Below are positions 15,685 to 63,475 of a stretch of 64,000 nt of DNA, piece by piece. The first letter of the stretch is position 1; each line of letters opens with the position of its first letter. Position numbers and translations under genes: made by a program. Origin of the DNA: Gemmatirosa kalamazoonensis (GTDB lineage: Bacteria; Gemmatimonadota; Gemmatimonadetes; Gemmatimonadales; Gemmatimonadaceae). Where the stretch lies: the NCBI RefSeq assembly GCF_000522985.1, contig NZ_CP007128.1, positions 3,394,220 to 3,458,219 of the forward strand, in the 5' to 3' direction. The notes beneath the pieces were generated by a model. The model saw nothing but the letters and a program-made list of their open reading frames with translations. It had not been told where the DNA came from and ran no database searches.

Positions 15685-15759
15685 ACGCTCCCCGCTCCAC
15701 GCTCCACGCTCGGCCCGTTCGCGGCGCGTGGCGAGCGTGGAGCGTGGAGCGGGGAGCGT
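15685..15759. repeat. Long hairpin of GAGCGTG-type heptamers (locus 1)
   Basis: Left arm 15685-15711 and right arm 15733-15759 are perfect reverse complements over 27 bp, with a 21-base loop. Both arms are built from near-tandem 7-bp words (CTCCACG / GAGCGTG) with one variant unit (CCCCG/CGGGG) that is mirrored in both arms. It lies between prmC and the ylbF-like gene, whose ATG is 15 bases past the hairpin. It can act as a terminator or mRNA-end structure. The same word family forms a second hairpin at 55136-55211. Confidence 0.8.
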
Positions 15760-15773
15760 GGAGAAACCCGGAT

Positions 15774-55114: not shown

Positions 55115-55135
55115 TCGAGAACCGGAGTTCGCTCC

Positions 55136-55211
55136 ACGCTCCACGCTCCACGCTCCACGCTCGCCATCTCGCGGCGGGCGTAGCGAGCGTGGAGCGTGGA
55201 GCGTGGAGCGT
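55136..55211. repeat. Long hairpin of GAGCGTG heptamers (locus 2) touching the rsmI start
   Basis: Left arm 55136-55164 and right arm 55183-55211 are perfect complements over 29 bp, loop 18 bases. The arms are four tandem GCTCCAC / GTGGAGC units. The rsmI ATG (55214) begins three bases past the hairpin, so the only GGAG near it is in the right arm and would be masked when folded. Confidence 0.85.
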
Positions 55212-55213
55212 TT

Positions 55214-56050
55214 ATGGCAGGAACGTTGTTCGTGGTCAGCACCCCCATCGGCAACCTCGGCGACATGACGCACCGGGGCGCCGAGGTGCTCGCGTCGGTG
55301 GCGGCGATCCTGGCCGAGGACACCCGGCACAGTCGGTCGCTCCTCGATGCGTACGAGGTGCGCACGCCGATGCTCGCCTATCACGAGCACAACGAGGCGC
55401 GCATGACGCCGCAGATCGTGGAGCGGCTGCGGGGCGGCGAGAGCTTCGCGCTCGTCTCGGACGCGGGGACGCCGCTGCTCTCCGATCCCGGCGCGCGGCT
55501 CGTCGCGGCGGCGATCGACGCCGGCATCGCGGTGAGCCCGGTGCCCGGCGCGTCGGCGCTGCTCGCCGCGCTCGTCGCGTCCGGGCTCGACGCGACGCGG
55601 TTCACGTTCTACGGCTTTCTCGCCCGCAAGGGACGCGAGCGGGGCGAGGCGATCGAGGCGATCGCCGCGTCGCGCCACACCGCCGTGCTCTACGAGGCGC
55701 CGGGGCGCGTGGGTGCGACGCTCGCCGACCTGGCGGACGCCGGCGCCGCCGAGCGGCCCGCGGCCGTGGCCCGCGAGTTGACGAAAACCTTCGAGGAGAT
55801 CCGACGGGGAACGGTCGGGGCGCTCGGTGCGTATTACGCGGAGCAGGCCCCGCGCGGTGAGGTCGTGATCGTCGTGGGCGGTGCCGGAGATGCGCCGGCA
55901 CCCGACGAGGCGACGCTCCGTGCGCGCGCGGCCGCGCTCCGCTCGGCGGGCGCGACCCCGCGCGACGTCGGCCGGGCGCTCGTGGCCGAGTTCGGGATCG
56001 GGCGCAACGAGGCGTATCGCATCGCGCAGGCGACGGATGACCCGACGTAG
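55214..56050 (+). CDS. rsmI: 16S rRNA (cytidine1402-2'-O)-methyltransferase
   Basis: 278 residues from ATG 55214; the in-frame GTG/ATG further up reads through the hairpin arm. Tetrapyrrole-methylase fold: LFVVSTPIGNLGDMTHRGAEVL, AEDTRHSRSLLDAY, YHEHNE, 'LVSDAGTPLLSDPGARLV' and VPGASALLAALVASGL, then EAPGRV. It methylates C1402 in the decoding centre. C-terminal about 55 residues form the small helical domain often added in long RsmI proteins. Confidence 0.96.
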   Translation: MAGTLFVVSTPIGNLGDMTHRGAEVLASVAAILAEDTRHSRSLLDAYEVRTPMLAYHEHNEARMTPQIVERLRGGESFALVSDAGTPLLSDPGARLVAAAIDAGIAVSPVPGASALLAALVASGLDATRFTFYGFLARKGRERGEAIEAIAASRHTAVLYEAPGRVGATLADLADAGAAERPAAVARELTKTFEEIRRGTVGALGAYYAEQAPRGEVVIVVGGAGDAPAPDEATLRARAAALRSAGATPRDVGRALVAEFGIGRNEAYRIAQATDDPT

Positions 56051-56059
56051 AGGGAGCGA

Positions 56060-56806
56060 GTGAGGATGCGACAGCGGAGTGCAGCGCGGAGTGCCGCGTG
56101 GCGGCGCACGGCGCGCCGGGTGGGCGGCGCGCTCGCCCTGTGCGGCGTGTGCGTCGCGGCGCGCGCTTCGTCACATGTCACGTCACATTTCGCGTCGGCG
56201 CCACACCTCACGATCGCCCGCCTGCAGTACGATGGAGGAGGCGACTGGTACGCGAACCCGTCGAGCCTCCCGAACCTCCTCGCCGCCATCCGCGAGCGCA
56301 CGTCGCTCCCGGTCGAGAAGGAGGAGGCGAGAATCCGCTTGACCGACGAGCGTCTCTGGGACTACCCGTATCTCCACATGACCGGCCACGGGAACGTCCA
56401 CTTCTCGGACGAGGAGATCGTGCGGCTGCGCGAGTACGTGCAGCGGGGCGGCTTCCTGCACGCGGACGACAACTACGGGCTCGACGAGAGCTTCCGTCGT
56501 GAGATCGCGCGCGTGTTCCCCGATCGGCCGCTCGTCGAGGTTCCGCTGTCTCACCCGATATACCACGCGGTCTACGAGTTCCCGAAGGGGCTGCCGAAGA
56601 TCCACGAGCACGACGGCAAGCCGCCGCAGGGCTTCGGCATCTTCGTCGGGCCCCGGCTGGCGGTGTTCTACACGCACGAGTGCGATCTCGGGAACGGATG
56701 GGAGGACGTCGGCACGTATCCCGGCGACCCGCCGGAGCTGCACGAGGCGGCGCTGCGCATGGGCGTGAACCTGTTCGTGTACGCGGTCACGAGTCGGCTG
56801 CAATGA
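56060..56806 (+). CDS. DUF4159 domain protein
   Basis: 248 residues from GTG 56060 (ATG 56066 also possible). A basic N-terminus and a hydrophobic stretch (VGGALALCGVCVAARAS) form a signal peptide. DUF4159-like body: 'RLQYDGGGDWYANPSSLPNLLAAI', 'YLHMTGHGNVHFSDEEI', GGFLHADDNYGLDESFR and LSHPIYHAVYEF, a glutamine-amidotransferase-like fold without a catalytic Cys visible. Found in gene clusters with MoxR/DUF58/vWA proteins in other bacteria. Start of a four-gene operon with the DUF4175-like gene 22 bases downstream. Confidence 0.85.
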   Translation: MRMRQRSAARSAAWRRTARRVGGALALCGVCVAARASSHVTSHFASAPHLTIARLQYDGGGDWYANPSSLPNLLAAIRERTSLPVEKEEARIRLTDERLWDYPYLHMTGHGNVHFSDEEIVRLREYVQRGGFLHADDNYGLDESFRREIARVFPDRPLVEVPLSHPIYHAVYEFPKGLPKIHEHDGKPPQGFGIFVGPRLAVFYTHECDLGNGWEDVGTYPGDPPELHEAALRMGVNLFVYAVTSRLQ

Positions 56807-56828
56807 GCCACGCTTTCGCGGGACGCGC

Positions 56829-59800
56829 ATGACGATCTCGGAGCTGGTCGGCCGGGAGCAGCGCCGCCTGCGCGCGCGCCTGCTCGTCGCGGGTGGCGCG
56901 CTCGGCGCCGCGGCGATCGGCGCGCTCGTCGCCGTCGGTGGGCTCGCGCTCGGTGGCGCGCGGTGGCTCGACCTACCGCGCGTGGTGCCGGTGGTGCTCT
57001 GGCTCGTCGTCGTCGCCGCGGGGCTCGCGGTCGCCTACGCGGTGCGCCGCGCGCTGCGCCGCGACGCGAGCGTCGGGCCGGTCGCCGCCGCGATCGAGCG
57101 GGAGCGTGCGCTGCGGGCCGGCGAGGTGCGCGGCGCATTGGAGGTCGCGCGTACCGGCGCGTTAGGCGCCCTCGCCGCCGAGCAGGTCGCGTCGCGACTG
57201 CGCGACCCCGGCGACGGCCGTGCGGCGAGATCGCTCGTGCCCACGCTGCAGCGGCGCGCGGGACGCCGCGCGGCCGTCGCCGGCTCGCTCGCCGCCGCGG
57301 CGGCGCTCGCCCTCGCCGGCTCGCTCGCCGTCGCGGGCGACGGCGTCGCCGCGCTGCTGCACCCCGCCGACGCGTGGCGCGGCACGCTGCTGCCGCCGCT
57401 CCGCTTCGCGTCGCTGCCGCGCGCGCTCGTGCGCGGCGAGCGGCTGCGCGTGCGGCTCGAGGCGCCGGGGCGTCGCCACGTGCGCGTCGCGCACCGGCTC
57501 ACCGGGCGCGCGTGGGAGGTGCACACGGTCGCCGTGAACCCGCAGGGCGTCGCCATGCTCGACGTCGGGCCGCTGGACGCGGATCTCATCGTCACGGCGA
57601 CGGACGGGCGTGCGGTCGCGGACACGGCCTCGGTGGCCGTGACCGACCGCGCGTTCGTCGGCGACGTCGCGGTGCGCGCGGAGTACCCGGCGTACCTGGG
57701 CCGCGCGCCGGAAACGCTGGCGAGCGGCGAGCCGGTGCGCGTGCCGCGGGGCACGGCGCTCACGGTGAGCGGCCGCGCGTCGACCGCACTCGACGAGGTC
57801 ACGCTCGGCGCGGGCGCGTCGACGGTGCGGCTGGTGCCTAACGGCCACACCTTCGCCGGTCGCATGGTCGCGGAGACGAGCGGCCGGTGGAGCTGGAGCG
57901 CGCGTGGCCCGGGCGGCCTGGTGGCCGACGTCCCGGCGCCGCTCGAGCTCGAGGTGGTTCCGGACTCGGCGCCGCGGGTGGAGATCGTGACGCCGTCGAG
58001 CGACAGCGTGGTCGACGGGGTCGCGCCGGTGCGCGTGGCGCTCGCGGCGAGCGACGACCACGGGCTGGAGTCGGTGGCGCTGCGCGCGTGGCGCGAGAAG
58101 GCCGACGGCACGCGCGAGACGCCGAACGAAGCGCGGCTCGCCTCCGGCGTTCCGCTGTGGAACGGCGCCGCGAACGTGGACCTCGCCGCGCGCGCGATGG
58201 CGGCGGGCGACAAGCTGCACGTGCAGGCGGTGGCGTTCGATGCGTCGCCGTGGCATCAGAGCGCGCTGAGCCGCGAGCTGGTGCTGCGCGTGCCGACGAC
58301 GAGCGAGCTGCGCGCCCAGGCGCGCGCGGCCGCCGACACCGCCGTGCAGCGCGCCACCGCCGCGGCGCAGGCGCAGCGCGACCTCGCCCAGCGCACCGAC
58401 AACGCGGCGCGCTCGCGCGATGCGTCGCAGCGCGATCAGAGCCGCTACCAGGGCACGACCGCGAAGTCGGGCGGCGACAACAAGGCGATGAGCTACGAGG
58501 CCGCCGAGCGCGCGAAGGGGCTCGCGCAGGAGCAGCGGCAGCTCTCGTCGAAGGTGCAGCAGCTCCAGGATCAGGCGAAGGCGCTCGAGCGGCAGCTGAA
58601 GCAGGCGGGCGCGCTCGACAGCTCGCTCGCGTCGCAGCTCGCCGACGTGCAGAAGCTCCTCCGTGACGCGCTGACGCCGGAGCTCGCGCAGCAGCTCCAG
58701 TCGCTCGAGCAGAACGCCGGGAAGCTCTCGGCGGCGCAGGCGCAGCAGTCGCTCGAGCAGCTCGCCGCGCAGCAGAAGGCCCTGCGGCAGCAGCTCGAGA
58801 AGAGCGTGGAGATGCTGCGCCGCGCGGCGCTCGAGGGCTCGATGCAGACGCTGCGCGACGAGGCGAAGGACCTCGCCTCCGCGCAGGCGAAGGAGGCGCA
58901 GCGACTCCAGTCGCCGGATTCGGCACAGAAGCAGGCGCCTAACGCGCCTAACGCGCCTAACGGCGGCGACGACGCGAAGGAGCTCGCCGACCGCTCGCGC
59001 GCGCTGCAGAAGGACGTCGACGATCTCACGAAGCGGCTGCGCAACGAGAAGGCGGACGTGGGTGCGCAGAAGGCCGCCGAGGCGACGAAGCACGCCGACG
59101 CGTCGGCCGACGCGATGGAGCGTGCCGCGCAGCAGGGCGCGAAGAGCATGCGCCAGGAGCCGCGCCCCGAGCAGAAGCCAGGCGCGACGCCGCAGCGGAT
59201 GGCGGGCAGCACGCCCTCCGCGAGCCAGCCGCCGCAGGCCGGCGAGCAGCAGAGCGGCGCCCAGCAGCAGCTCGGCGGTCAGCAGCAGAGCGGCCCGAAG
59301 CAGGGCGGCCAGCAACAGGGTGGCCAGCAGCAGGGAGCGCAGCAGCAGGGCGGGCAGCAGGGTGCGGCGTCGGCGGCGCAGCAGGCGTCGCGCGAGATGC
59401 AGCAGGCGGCCGACCAGCTCTCGCAGGCGCGCCAGGGACAGATCGACGCGTGGAAGAACGAGCTGAGCTCCGAGCTCGATCGCGCGATCCAGGAGACCAT
59501 GCAGATGGCGCGCGAGCAGGCCGACGTGGAGCAGCAGGCGCGCAGCGGCGCCGACCCCTCGCAGCTCCGCGAGCAGCAGGGCGCCGTGCAGCAGGGCGTC
59601 GAGCAGACCGCGCAGCGCCTCGATCAGGCGGGGCGCAAGTCGTCGCTCCTCTCGCAGCGCGCGCAGCGGGCGCTCGGCGACGCGCGGCAGCAGGTCGCCG
59701 ACGCGACGAAGGCGCTGCAGCAGGGACAGCCCGGGCAGTCGGGAGCGCAGCAGTCGGCGAGCGCCGCGAACCAGATGCGCGAGGCGGGCGAGTCGCTGAA

Positions 59801-60404
59801 CCGCGCCGCCGCGGCGCTCGTGCGCGACCGCGAGCGCGTGAACGGCGCGCAGTCCGCCTCGGGCTTCGAGGACATGATCGCGCAGATGCGCGACCTCGCG
59901 AAGCAGCAGGGCCAGATCAACCAGCAGTCGTCGGCGCTGCAGCTCCCGATGCCGGGCCAGTCGGGCGGCGCGGGGCGCGAGGCGGCGCGGCAGCTCGCGA
60001 AGCAGCAGCGCGGCGTGGCCGACAAGCTCGAGGACATCGGCGACAACGACGCGACCGGCCACGCCGACGCGCTGGCGAAGGAGGCGCGGCAGCTCGCGCA
60101 GCAGCTCGAGCGCGTCGGCGCGGACCCGCAGACCGCGCAGCGTCAGCAGCAGCTCTATCGCCGCCTGCTCGATGCCGGCCGCACGCTGGAGCAGGACGAG
60201 CGCGACGAGAGCGGCAAGCGCGAGGCGCGCTCCGGCGCGGGCATCAACGGCATCGCGCCGGCCGAGGGCACGACGTCCGGCCGCGCGGCGACGAAGTTCC
60301 AGACGCCGGAATGGGCGCAGCTCCGCGGCCTCTCCGCGGAGGAGCGCCGGCTCGTCATCGAGTACTTCCGCCGCCTGAACGCCGGCTCGGGCACGCCGCA
60401 GTGA
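56829..60404 (+). CDS. DUF4175-like giant membrane coiled-coil protein
   Basis: 1191 residues. Two TM helices (about 20-46, 53-75) and a third near 155-175 precede an Ig-like beta region (about 200-480: 'VRAEYPAYLGRAPETLASGEPVRVPRGT', 'VSDDHGLESVALRAWREK' style). From 490 to the end it is a long Gln/Ala/Lys/Arg coiled coil, with a low-complexity Gln/Gly stretch (about 800-860) and an APNAPNAPN triplet encoded by three tandem GCCTAACG words. DUF4175-type proteins belong to envelope clusters; function unknown. The TGA overlaps the next gene's GTG. Confidence 0.8.
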   Translation: MTISELVGREQRRLRARLLVAGGALGAAAIGALVAVGGLALGGARWLDLPRVVPVVLWLVVVAAGLAVAYAVRRALRRDASVGPVAAAIERERALRAGEVRGALEVARTGALGALAAEQVASRLRDPGDGRAARSLVPTLQRRAGRRAAVAGSLAAAAALALAGSLAVAGDGVAALLHPADAWRGTLLPPLRFASLPRALVRGERLRVRLEAPGRRHVRVAHRLTGRAWEVHTVAVNPQGVAMLDVGPLDADLIVTATDGRAVADTASVAVTDRAFVGDVAVRAEYPAYLGRAPETLASGEPVRVPRGTALTVSGRASTALDEVTLGAGASTVRLVPNGHTFAGRMVAETSGRWSWSARGPGGLVADVPAPLELEVVPDSAPRVEIVTPSSDSVVDGVAPVRVALAASDDHGLESVALRAWREKADGTRETPNEARLASGVPLWNGAANVDLAARAMAAGDKLHVQAVAFDASPWHQSALSRELVLRVPTTSELRAQARAAADTAVQRATAAAQAQRDLAQRTDNAARSRDASQRDQSRYQGTTAKSGGDNKAMSYEAAERAKGLAQEQRQLSSKVQQLQDQAKALERQLKQAGALDSSLASQLADVQKLLRDALTPELAQQLQSLEQNAGKLSAAQAQQSLEQLAAQQKALRQQLEKSVEMLRRAALEGSMQTLRDEAKDLASAQAKEAQRLQSPDSAQKQAPNAPNAPNGGDDAKELADRSRALQKDVDDLTKRLRNEKADVGAQKAAEATKHADASADAMERAAQQGAKSMRQEPRPEQKPGATPQRMAGSTPSASQPPQAGEQQSGAQQQLGGQQQSGPKQGGQQQGGQQQGAQQQGGQQGAASAAQQASREMQQAADQLSQARQGQIDAWKNELSSELDRAIQETMQMAREQADVEQQARSGADPSQLREQQGAVQQGVEQTAQRLDQAGRKSSLLSQRAQRALGDARQQVADATKALQQGQPGQSGAQQSASAANQMREAGESLNRAAAALVRDRERVNGAQSASGFEDMIAQMRDLAKQQGQINQQSSALQLPMPGQSGGAGREAARQLAKQQRGVADKLEDIGDNDATGHADALAKEARQLAQQLERVGADPQTAQRQQQLYRRLLDAGRTLEQDERDESGKREARSGAGINGIAPAEGTTSGRAATKFQTPEWAQLRGLSAEERRLVIEYFRRLNAGSGTPQ
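58937..58962 (+). repeat. Three tandem GCCTAACG words, 9-bp period, coding Ala-Pro-Asn x3
   Basis: Copies at 58937-58944, 58946-58953 and 58955-58962, each separated by one C. The densest cluster of the dispersed octamer in the window, inside the DUF4175-like coiled coil, where Pro breaks the helix. Confidence 0.85.
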
Positions 60405-62131
60405 CGCGGCCTGGGACGAGCCGCGTCCTCCGGCGGCTCGTTAGGCGGCTCGCGGGCACCCTGGCCGCGGCGCTCGTCTGCGGCGCCGCCACGCGAGCGA
60501 CGGCGCAGGGCGCTCCCGCGGCCGCGCTCACGCGCGCGCTCGACCTCGAGGGGGCGGGGAAGATGCGCGAGGCGGCGGTCGCGTTCCGCGAGGCGTACGC
60601 TGCCGCAGGCACCGACTCCGACGCGCGCGCGACGGCGATCCTCGGCCTCGAGCGCGCGTTCGCGGGGCTCGGCCAGGTCGACTCGCTGCTGCCGGTGCTG
60701 GAGCCCGCGCTCCGCGCGCGGCCGCGCGACCCCACACTGCGCGCGATCCAGCTCCGCACGCTGCGCACGTTGGGCCGCGACGACGCGGCGCGTGCGGCGT
60801 TCGACCAGTGGCGCGCGTCGGTGCCTAACGACGCGGCGCCGTACCGCGAGTATGCGCGCCAGCTGCTCGACGCCGGGCGTCCGGCGGCCGCCGATACGGT
60901 GCTTCGCCTCGCGCAGCGCGCGCTGCGCGGCATGGGCGAGCTCGCGCTGGAGACGGCGGAGATGCAGTCGGCGCTCGGCATGTGGTCGCAGGCCGCCGCG
61001 TCGTGGCGCGACGCGCTCGGGCGGTTGGACTACGCGGAGCCCGCGGCGCTGTTCGCGCTGCAGCCCGCGCCGGCCGCCGCGCGCGACACCATCCGCGCGG
61101 CGCTCGCTGCCCCGCCGCTCACGTTGCGCGCGCGACGCGTGCTGTCGCAGCTGCTCGTCGCATGGCGGCAGCCGAGCGAGGCGTGGGCGGCGCTGTCCAT
61201 GCTCGCGCCCGACGACTCGTCGATCGCCGCGTGGCACGACTTCGCCGAGCGCGCCGAGGCGAACGAGCAGTGGAGCGCGGCGCGCGACGCGTGGACGCGG
61301 CTCGCGTCGCTGCGCGGCGGCGCGCCGCTGCTGCTTCGTGCGGCCGCGGCGTCGCTCGCCGCGCGCGACGCGGCCGGCGCGCTCGCGCTGCTCGATCGTG
61401 CGCGCGACTCGGCCTCGACGCGCACCGCGACGCTGCTGCGCGTCGAGGCGCTGTCGCGACTCGGCCGCGCGGCCGACGCGGCGCGGCTCGTCGCCGACGC
61501 GCGCGGGCTCGATGCGGGCGACCGCGCGCGCGCGGCGGCGCTCGTCGCCGACGCGTGGGTGCGCGCGGGCGACGTGGCGCAGGCGCGCGCCGCGCTCGCG
61601 GCGGTGGGCGAGGCGGCCGACGACGGGGGCGCGACGGGCTGGCTCGCGCTCTACGCGGGCGATCTGAAGCAGGCGCGCTCGCTGCTCAAGCGCACGAGCG
61701 ACGCGCCGGGCACCGACCCGGCGATGGCGATGACCGCCCTCGCCCTGCTCGCGCGGACACGCGCCGACTCCGCGCCGACGGTGGGCGACGCGTTCCTCAG
61801 CGCCGCGCGCGGGGACAGCGCGCGCGCCGCCGAGTCGTTCGAGGCCGCGGCGAAGGCGCTGCCCGAGGCGGCGCCGCTGCTGCTCGCGGCATCGGCGCGG
61901 CTGCGCGCCGCGCGCCGCGACACCGTCGGTGCGCTCGCCGTGTGGCAGCACATCGTGACCGACTTCTCCGAGTCGCCGGAAGCGCCCGAGGCCGAGCTGG
62001 CGTGGGCGCGCACCCTGCTCGCGCGCGGCGACCGCGCGCAGGCGGCCGAACGACTCGAGCACCTCATCGTGACGTACCCGCGCAGCGCGCTCGTGCCGAT
62101 CGCGCGGCGCGAGCTGGAGAGAGCGAAATGA
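60401..62131 (+). CDS. Secreted TPR-repeat protein
   Basis: 576 residues; GTG 60401 overlaps the previous stop. Signal peptide (RRLAGTLAAALVCGAATRATAQ). Throughout, 34-residue-like helical pairs with the TPR small/large spacing: 'AGKMREAAVAFREAYAAAG', 'GRPAAADTVLRLAQRAL', 'EQWSAARDAWTRLASLRG', 'GDVAQARAALAAVGEA' and the closing 'RGDRAQAAERLEHLIVTYP' with Pro-Arg-Ser typical of a BamD/YbgF-like end. A periplasmic scaffold for the operon partners. Followed by an ATG overlapping its stop. Confidence 0.8.
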   Translation: MTRPGTSRVLRRLVRRLAGTLAAALVCGAATRATAQGAPAAALTRALDLEGAGKMREAAVAFREAYAAAGTDSDARATAILGLERAFAGLGQVDSLLPVLEPALRARPRDPTLRAIQLRTLRTLGRDDAARAAFDQWRASVPNDAAPYREYARQLLDAGRPAAADTVLRLAQRALRGMGELALETAEMQSALGMWSQAAASWRDALGRLDYAEPAALFALQPAPAAARDTIRAALAAPPLTLRARRVLSQLLVAWRQPSEAWAALSMLAPDDSSIAAWHDFAERAEANEQWSAARDAWTRLASLRGGAPLLLRAAAASLAARDAAGALALLDRARDSASTRTATLLRVEALSRLGRAADAARLVADARGLDAGDRARAAALVADAWVRAGDVAQARAALAAVGEAADDGGATGWLALYAGDLKQARSLLKRTSDAPGTDPAMAMTALALLARTRADSAPTVGDAFLSAARGDSARAAESFEAAAKALPEAAPLLLAASARLRAARRDTVGALAVWQHIVTDFSESPEAPEAELAWARTLLARGDRAQAAERLEHLIVTYPRSALVPIARRELERAK

Positions 62132-63417
62132 GCGAGCGTGGAGCGTGGCGCTGGGCGCGGGGAGCGGGGCTCGTGTTAGGCGCGATCGTGTTGCTCGCGG
62201 CGCGGATCGCCGGCGCGCAGATGCTGCTCGTGCCGATGGACGACGAGCAGCGCAACCACCTCAAGGCGTACGGCCTGGTGTACAACGCGCTGAAGGACGG
62301 CCAGAAGGCGGAATGGCTGCTGAACTACCGCGGCGGCGCGTTCTTCCTCCCCGACCTGCCCGAGCTGCGGCGGCGTGCCGCGCTCGTGGGCGTCTCGGTG
62401 GAGCAGGAGGACGCCGGATCGGTGGACGCGATCCGGCGCGAGATCGCGTCGGGCAACATGGACGCCGTGCCACTGGAGAAGGCGCCGAAGGTCGCCATCT
62501 ACACGCCGCCGAACTCGCCGCCGTGGGACGACGCGGTCACGCTCGCGCTCACGTACGCGGGAATCGAGTTCGCCAAGATCTGGGACGACCAGGTGCTCGA
62601 CGGCGAGCTGTCGAAGTACGACTGGGTGCACCTCTTCCACGAGGACTTCACGGGCCAGCAGAACAAGCTGTACCTCGGCTACCGCGATGCACCGTGGTTC
62701 ATCGAGCAGCGGCAGCGCGCGCTCGCCACGGCGCAGAAGTACAACATCCCCGGCGGCGTGCCCGGCGTGAAGAAGGCGGTGGCCGAGCGCATCCGACAGT
62801 ACGTGGAGAACGGCGGCTTCCTGTTCGCGATGTGCGGTGCCACCGAGTCGCTCGACCTCGCGATCGCGGGGAAGGACGTGGACTTCGCGGGCCCCCAGGT
62901 CGACGGCTCGCCGCCGGATCCGGACGCCGACCGCAAGTTCAACTGGTCGCGCTCGTTCGCGTTCAAGGACGCGCACGTGGAAGGGCCGTTCGTGAACGCG
63001 CTGAGCGACATCGACGGCCACCAGGTGAACGTGCCGGGGCGCCGCCAGCCGTTAGGCACGTTCGCGCTGTTCGCGTTCGCCGCGAAGTTCGACCCCGTCG
63101 CGACGATGCTGGTGCAGGACCACCGCAACGTCATCAACGACTTCTACGGGGTGACGACGTCGTTCACGAAGGCGACGCTGAAGCCGGGCGTGACGGTGCT
63201 CGCCAGCGAGGAGGGGGCGCCGTGGGTGAAGTACATCCACGGCGACTACGGCAAGGGCTCGTGGACGTTCCTCGGCGGGCACGATCCCGAGGACCCGCAG
63301 CACGCGATCGGCAACGCGCCGACCGACCTGGCGCTGCACCCCACGTCGCCCGGCTACCGGCTCATCCTCAACAACGTCCTGTTCCCCGCGGCGAAGAAGA
63401 AGCCGCTGAAGACCTGA
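62128..63417 (+). CDS. Secreted 'asparagine synthetase B-like' family protein (envelope, function unknown)
   Basis: 429 residues. Signal peptide (GAGLVLGAIVLLAARIAGAQ) and the family start LLVPMDDEQRNHLKAYGLVYNALKDG followed by EWLLNYRGG. As far as I recall, homologues in Bacteroidetes carry the legacy name asparagine synthetase B, but I see no glutaminase Cys-2 or ATP-PP motif, so that name is unsupported. The middle has 'GGFLFAMCGATESLDLAI' and 'EFAKIWDDQVLDGELSKYDWVHLFHEDF', resembling glutamine-amidotransferase/ThuA-like folds as in DUF4159. Its first codons contain the GAGCGTG repeat word twice. Confidence 0.72.
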   Translation: MSERGAWRWARGAGLVLGAIVLLAARIAGAQMLLVPMDDEQRNHLKAYGLVYNALKDGQKAEWLLNYRGGAFFLPDLPELRRRAALVGVSVEQEDAGSVDAIRREIASGNMDAVPLEKAPKVAIYTPPNSPPWDDAVTLALTYAGIEFAKIWDDQVLDGELSKYDWVHLFHEDFTGQQNKLYLGYRDAPWFIEQRQRALATAQKYNIPGGVPGVKKAVAERIRQYVENGGFLFAMCGATESLDLAIAGKDVDFAGPQVDGSPPDPDADRKFNWSRSFAFKDAHVEGPFVNALSDIDGHQVNVPGRRQPLGTFALFAFAAKFDPVATMLVQDHRNVINDFYGVTTSFTKATLKPGVTVLASEEGAPWVKYIHGDYGKGSWTFLGGHDPEDPQHAIGNAPTDLALHPTSPGYRLILNNVLFPAAKKKPLKT

Positions 63418-63424
63418 TGCGACG

Positions 63425-63450
63425 AAGGGCGCCCCGACAGGAGCGCCCTT
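63425..63450. terminator. Hairpin terminator after the four-gene operon
   Basis: AAGGGCGC (63425-63432) pairs with GCGCCCTT (63443-63450), loop 10 bases, eight bases after the stop; followed by CCACTTTCTG. Lies between convergent genes. Confidence 0.6.
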
Positions 63451-63475
63451 CCACTTTCTGTACGGTCTCGTGGGC

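Follow-up and report, generated by a model that had tools for sequence, protein, structure and literature searches.

In the genome of Gemmatirosa kalamazoonensis (7.48 Mb on four contigs, Gemmatimonadota), four adjacent genes form one heritable module. They encode a DUF4159 protein, a DUF4175-like membrane protein, a TPR protein and an "AsnB-like" protein that bears the legacy name asparagine synthetase B. The operon spans positions 56060-63417 on the forward strand of the window, which is the whole 64,000-nucleotide stretch analysed here (positions 3,394,220-3,458,219 of a 5,311,527-bp contig). Our literature searches, confined to open-licence papers, found no description of this module, which is related to the known MoxR/DUF58/BatA kind of gene cluster. 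Gene order, co-inheritance, shared families, and predicted fold and topology are directly supported. From them we infer a physical complex, a periplasmic location of the partners, a ligand-binding or catalytic role and a target: with a probability of about 0.55, the four products form a single periplasmic complex that is anchored in the inner membrane and would act in envelope assembly, maintenance or sensing. The four genes are the following.

56060..56806, forward strand: gene 1, DUF4159 protein (PF13709, 1.5e-68).
56829..60404, forward strand: gene 2, DUF4175-like protein (PF13779, 2.8e-5, below cut-off).
60401..62131, forward strand: gene 3, TPR protein (TPR_19, 1.8e-4; this and further TPR models stay below cut-off).
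62128..63417, forward strand: gene 4, AsnB-like protein (no Pfam or NCBIfam family; described from predicted structure and conservation).

The conservation of this arrangement was examined in a survey of 150 genomes of the phylum, with families labelled f1-f9. All four genes occur in the same order at 46 Gemmatimonadaceae loci and at 12 loci from three other families (f2, f4, f5); because this order recurs so often, it and the spacing lie far beyond chance. In f7 the DUF4175-like, TPR and AsnB-like genes stay together and DUF4159 is found elsewhere, and in f8 the order is retained with other genes inserted between DUF4159 and the remainder. In f9, which belongs to another class, the set is split within the same genomes into a DUF4159/DUF4175-like pair and a TPR/AsnB-like pair. 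An earlier note on this DNA had suggested a conserved, undescribed envelope gene set and a neighbourhood survey to check it; the four genes do co-occur elsewhere in the phylum, and the suggestion gains further from their joint absence in 15 genomes.

These absences were established with a DUF4159 orthologue threshold of E < 1e-58 (weakest accepted match, 4.8e-59; strongest listed paralogue, 6.3e-55). The AsnB-like gene is present in 134 of the 150 genomes. It occurs together with a DUF4159 orthologue in 131, both are missing from 15, and only four genomes are discordant. Thus, 15 of the 16 genomes without the AsnB-like gene also lack a DUF4159 orthologue, and the same 15 contain no full-strength DUF4175-like orthologue, only paralogue-like matches (best 9.6e-25). 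The discordant assemblies (G043, G083, G090, G130) consist of 290-620 contigs each; in three of them a contig end clearly truncates the DUF4175-like match, and G090 has it on the contig that also carries the AsnB-like gene.

All 15 genomes without the module retain the upstream neighbour rsmI. Among seven of these sites that were read, five are cleanly empty (G010, G023, G047, G124, G126): rsmI abuts dinG, FAH or a TonB-like gene, leaving no room for the module. In the other two (G032, G052) about 1.5 kb separates rsmI from dinG. G124 is a single-contig genome, and its same-genus relative G119 retains the DUF4175-like, TPR and AsnB-like genes. Since the genes are lost jointly while their neighbours stay, often over an empty site, they are one heritable module. 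The losses fall in f1, f6, f7 and f9 (the f9 case, G011, is only 88% complete) and would amount to about four events if the families, whose labels stand in for a tree, are natural groups. Gain by transfer may be an alternative to loss. No match turned up in plasmid and viral collections, and the best 80 matches of a genome-contig scan all show 66-84% identity and are mostly titled Gemmatimonadota. Tight spacing favours co-transcription, and operons may hold genes of unrelated function, as the upstream rsmI illustrates, so the four genes might simply be co-transcribed neighbours with separate roles. We consider this very improbable, since joint loss spares rsmI, dinG and others, and the genes are retained together even where the set is split.

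Several points weigh against the proposed complex. Co-inheritance demonstrates a shared unit, not a complex, and the split of the set into two pairs in f9 could indicate two separable functions. The complex itself is deduced from gene context and models. Furthermore, no correlate of loss emerged: SprA is present in most genomes without the module and absent from some that retain it, and the distribution of flagellin does not track the module either. The TPR protein weakly matches PorW/SprE (0.003), which had raised a link to type IX secretion; that link was therefore rejected, as was a link to flagella. For LptD, the Pfam model has no hit in any of the 28 genomes tested and is hence uninformative.

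Within the proposed complex, the DUF4175-like protein would serve as the inner-membrane anchor. An AlphaFold model of residues 1-520 (mean predicted local distance difference test score, pLDDT, 93.9) and hydropathy agree on three membrane helices (residues 3-41, 53-79 and 138-168). The model places three immunoglobulin (Ig)-like domains at about residues 187-489 (best VIA Z about 10); this fold is widespread and says nothing about function. The composition of the C-terminal part that follows is rich in glutamine and alanine. The positive charges around the helices suggest an extracytoplasmic position for both the Ig-like domains and the C-terminal arm, so that the anchor would expose three Ig-like domains and a long Q/A-rich arm to the periplasm. 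We call this protein DUF4175-like because it stays below the PF13779 cut-off (22.8 versus 27.3 bits) while a distant f9 orthologue passes it with 28.6 bits. The only paper we found that names DUF4175 concerns AdvA of Acinetobacter baumannii (PMC7481262), a cell-division protein that is comparable by annotation only. Its annotated DUF4175 region and two predicted membrane helices are the points of similarity to gene 2; it has no described DUF4159, TPR or AsnB-like partners (PMC7481262).

Three exported partners would assemble on this anchor: DUF4159 and the AsnB-like protein, both of the class I glutamine amidotransferase (GATase)/ThuA superfamily, and the TPR protein as an adaptor. The earlier note took all four products to be exported or membrane-bound. 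This holds for the DUF4175-like protein with its three helices and, as far as the sequence can tell, for the AsnB-like protein, which has a hydrophobic N-terminal segment at residues 15-33 and appears to be exported. Export of the DUF4159 and TPR proteins is likely: their N-termini read as arginine-rich, contain brief hydrophobic stretches and sites of the Ala-X-Ala type, and fall below the 19-residue hydropathy cut. The TPR gene is the fastest-diverging of the four, its profile match in f8 and f9 weakening to roughly 1e-7 to 1e-11, and its product has a YbgF-like C-terminus (2.2e-8, below cut-off).

Gene 1 matches the DUF4159 profile over its full length (230.8 bits against a PF13709 cut-off of 25.9). 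DUF4159 is named in no paper that we found. A solved relative, Hoch_4089 (PDB 4i66; residues 60-243, E 1.7e-10), is a DUF4159 homologue deposited as an uncharacterized protein. In the alignment, the stretch equivalent to the nucleophile elbow reads GGFLHADDN and contains no cysteine. By sequence, DUF4159 is a GATase-I-like superfamily member without the elbow cysteine. A profile match between the AsnB-like protein and DUF4159 at the elbow strand is weak (19 columns, probability 48%).

The legacy name of gene 4 was doubted in the earlier note, and we arrive at the same view. Apart from the name, which reached us through that note, nothing speaks for an asparagine synthetase. Pfam and NCBIfam detect no class II GATase or asparagine synthase domain in gene 4, the sequence begins with MSERG and so lacks a cysteine at position 2, its N-terminus is hydrophobic and of export type, and the predicted fold is unrelated. 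The protein therefore shows neither the Cys2 class II GATase nor the synthetase domain that would make it an asparagine synthetase B, and this assignment is practically untenable. Meanwhile, the name conceals gene 4 from anyone searching for it. Proteins of the same type that bear this name may also exist in Bacteroidota.

The AsnB-like protein matches no Pfam or NCBIfam family. Its AlphaFold model (pLDDT 79) consists of an alpha/beta domain (about residues 31-117) followed by a class-I-GATase/ThuA-type domain (118-425). This predicted structure has the GATase-I fold (best VIA Z 12.4, with many GATase-I domains at Z 10-12), including ThuA proteins (4jqs, Z 12.0; 1t0b, Z 11.7; 4pxy, Z 11.9) and glutaminase subunits (the Pdx2 protein 2iss_D, Z 11.4; the PabA-type 8hx9_B, Z 11.1). 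Non-catalytic GATase-like domains, such as that of the GH42 protein 5xb7 and those of ThuA proteins, match equally well. Because glutaminases and non-catalytic domains both match, the fold leaves activity undecided. The protein shares the predicted fold, an elbow cysteine and a GHDPE motif with the ThuA/class I GATase superfamily (PF06283, PF00117), but differs from it by the absence of a Pfam match, an extra N-terminal domain and predicted export. None of 76 AsnB-like members matches PF06283 (ThuA) at E up to 0.1, and hhalign comparisons with three ThuA proteins of the same genome were not significant, which led us to give up a sequence-level proof of ThuA ancestry.

Mean column identity across the 76 sequences is 73%, a striking degree of conservation. 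Cys236 closes the motif FAMC, after which come a variable residue and Ala. It does not vary among these 76 Gemmatimonadaceae-type sequences or among 20 more that represent other families of the phylum. The residue sits at a predicted elbow between a strand (231-235) and a helix (237-247), flanked at -2 and +2 by small residues, and the model thus makes it a candidate nucleophile. His385-Asp-Pro-Glu388, within GHDPE near the C-terminus, is also invariant, with H-x-x-E spacing instead of the usual H-x-E. The earlier note had sensed a GATase/ThuA-like character in two of the products and seen no nucleophile. This description suits DUF4159 and misses the invariant cysteine of the AsnB-like protein.

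These residues raise the question as to whether the AsnB-like protein could be a functional cysteine-dependent amidotransferase or amidase. The module would then be an enzyme complex that synthesises or modifies peptidoglycan or an exported glycan. The invariant Cys236 with its small flanking residues, the invariant His385 and Glu388, and the glutaminase subunits among the fold matches would all be consistent with such an enzyme. Given the equally good non-catalytic matches, the unusual spacing that makes the triad geometry only putative, and the absence of the elbow cysteine from DUF4159, we regard this model-based alternative as unlikely. In the periplasmic complex that we favour, the AsnB-like protein may bind a small ligand (a sugar or an amide) or act on it through Cys236; our confidence in catalysis is much lower than that in the complex. 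The more detailed picture is speculative: a phylum-wide envelope machine with an inner-membrane Ig/coiled-coil scaffold and two periplasmic GATase-fold proteins, in which the AsnB-like protein would be an active cysteine enzyme on an exported amide or sugar, DUF4159 would be catalytically dead, and the MoxR ATPase of related systems would be missing.

The earlier note also related the operon to MoxR/BatA clusters, and this is correct in part. The same genome contains a DUF4159-MoxR-DUF58-BatA-DUF4175-like cluster (L144, G000:C3:734000-753900) and a second locus (L142) in which MoxR, DUF58 and DUF4159 are joined by a weak match to BatA. The DUF4159 protein of the first cluster is 29% identical to gene 1 (2e-17), and its DUF4175-like protein gives a profile match to gene 2 (3.8e-28), with no match between the two in pairwise BLASTP. 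This cluster resides on the 1.1-Mb second replicon, not on the main chromosome. The DUF4159 and DUF4175-like families and the envelope location are common to both systems. In contrast, no MoxR-type AAA+ ATPase, DUF58, or BatA/vWA domain was found by Pfam or NCBIfam among the four operon products, which include a TPR and an AsnB-like protein instead, and the operon was lost independently of BatA-domain genes. The operon is therefore of the same broad kind as these clusters but fails their defining features.

Conceivably, the module has simply split off from a MoxR/DUF58/BatA machine and is served in trans by an ATPase and vWA proteins whose genes lie at other sites of the genome. The two paralogues inside such clusters of the same genome would fit this idea, as would the BatA-domain genes in 27 of 28 genomes tested. 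However, the MoxR/BatA clusters carry their own DUF4159 and DUF4175-like copies, BatA-domain genes remain in 14 of the 15 genomes without the module, and the AsnB-like gene adjoins MoxR/BatA in no locus examined. We hold this idea to be possible but doubtful, and BatA was dismissed as an obligate partner because its domains persist where the module is missing. According to the self-contained complex that we prefer, the module would be a variant of the MoxR/DUF58/BatA design with the ATPase and vWA proteins missing and the TPR/AsnB-like pair added. Its job would most likely be to assemble, maintain or sense a component of the envelope.

The four open reading frames lie as close together as the earlier note described, with 22 bp between DUF4159 and the DUF4175-like gene, a GTGA overlap of the latter with the TPR gene, and an ATGA overlap between the TPR and AsnB-like genes. 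The note omitted rsmI, which ends 9 bp upstream of gene 1 and is a conserved upstream neighbour. DUF4159 starts at GTG 56060 or ATG 56066. Third-position GC is 0.89 for DUF4159 and 0.96 for the DUF4175-like gene, typical for local genes. Two features flank the set.

55196..56050, forward strand: rsmI-type methyltransferase (PF00590; Pfam TP_methylase, 5.6e-32).
63424..63451, forward strand: hairpin GAAGGGCGC...GCGCCCTTC just 3' of gene 4 (z -2.49 versus shuffles).

Gene rsmI is probably co-transcribed with the four-gene set. With only 9 bp before gene 1, the transcript start may therefore be further upstream. The hairpin is a possible operon end; it has no U-run and hence is not a canonical intrinsic terminator. 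A scan of the region for consensus promoters and terminators found none. The conserved chromosomal neighbourhood at loci L006, L012 and L169-L174 reads pdxJ-glyoxalase-trxA-rsmI-[module]-dinG-FAH hydrolase-aminotransferase-TonB-like-LexA-GltX, where the downstream names are our own reading. In the genome of the window, a PEP-CTERM-type protein stands downstream of the module in place of the usual neighbours. The window also contains (CTCCACG)n heptamer repeats opposite an inverted copy, forming long hairpins at 55132-55208 (the trxA-rsmI interval) and 15688-15763. CTCCACGCTCCACGC has 11 matches versus 0.05 expected, and a single near-match (62136-62150) extends over the opening codons of gene 4.

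Two side observations concern the envelope of the phylum at large. The Pfam LptD model, without a hit in all 28 Gemmatimonadota genomes, was positive in the E. coli and Caulobacter controls; the outer-membrane lipopolysaccharide route of Gemmatimonadota may use a diverged LptD or none. A large SprA-like protein (type IX secretion translocon model TIGR04189, 3.4e-146) is encoded at G000:C2:4848308-4852549 and also occurs in most Gemmatimonadota tested, outside Bacteroidota.

Gemmatimonadota are an abundant group in soil and water with few cultured members. A gene set that is kept in about nine tenths of this phylum and lost only as a unit likely has a general envelope role. The natural knock-outs with clean empty sites make this function testable by comparison.

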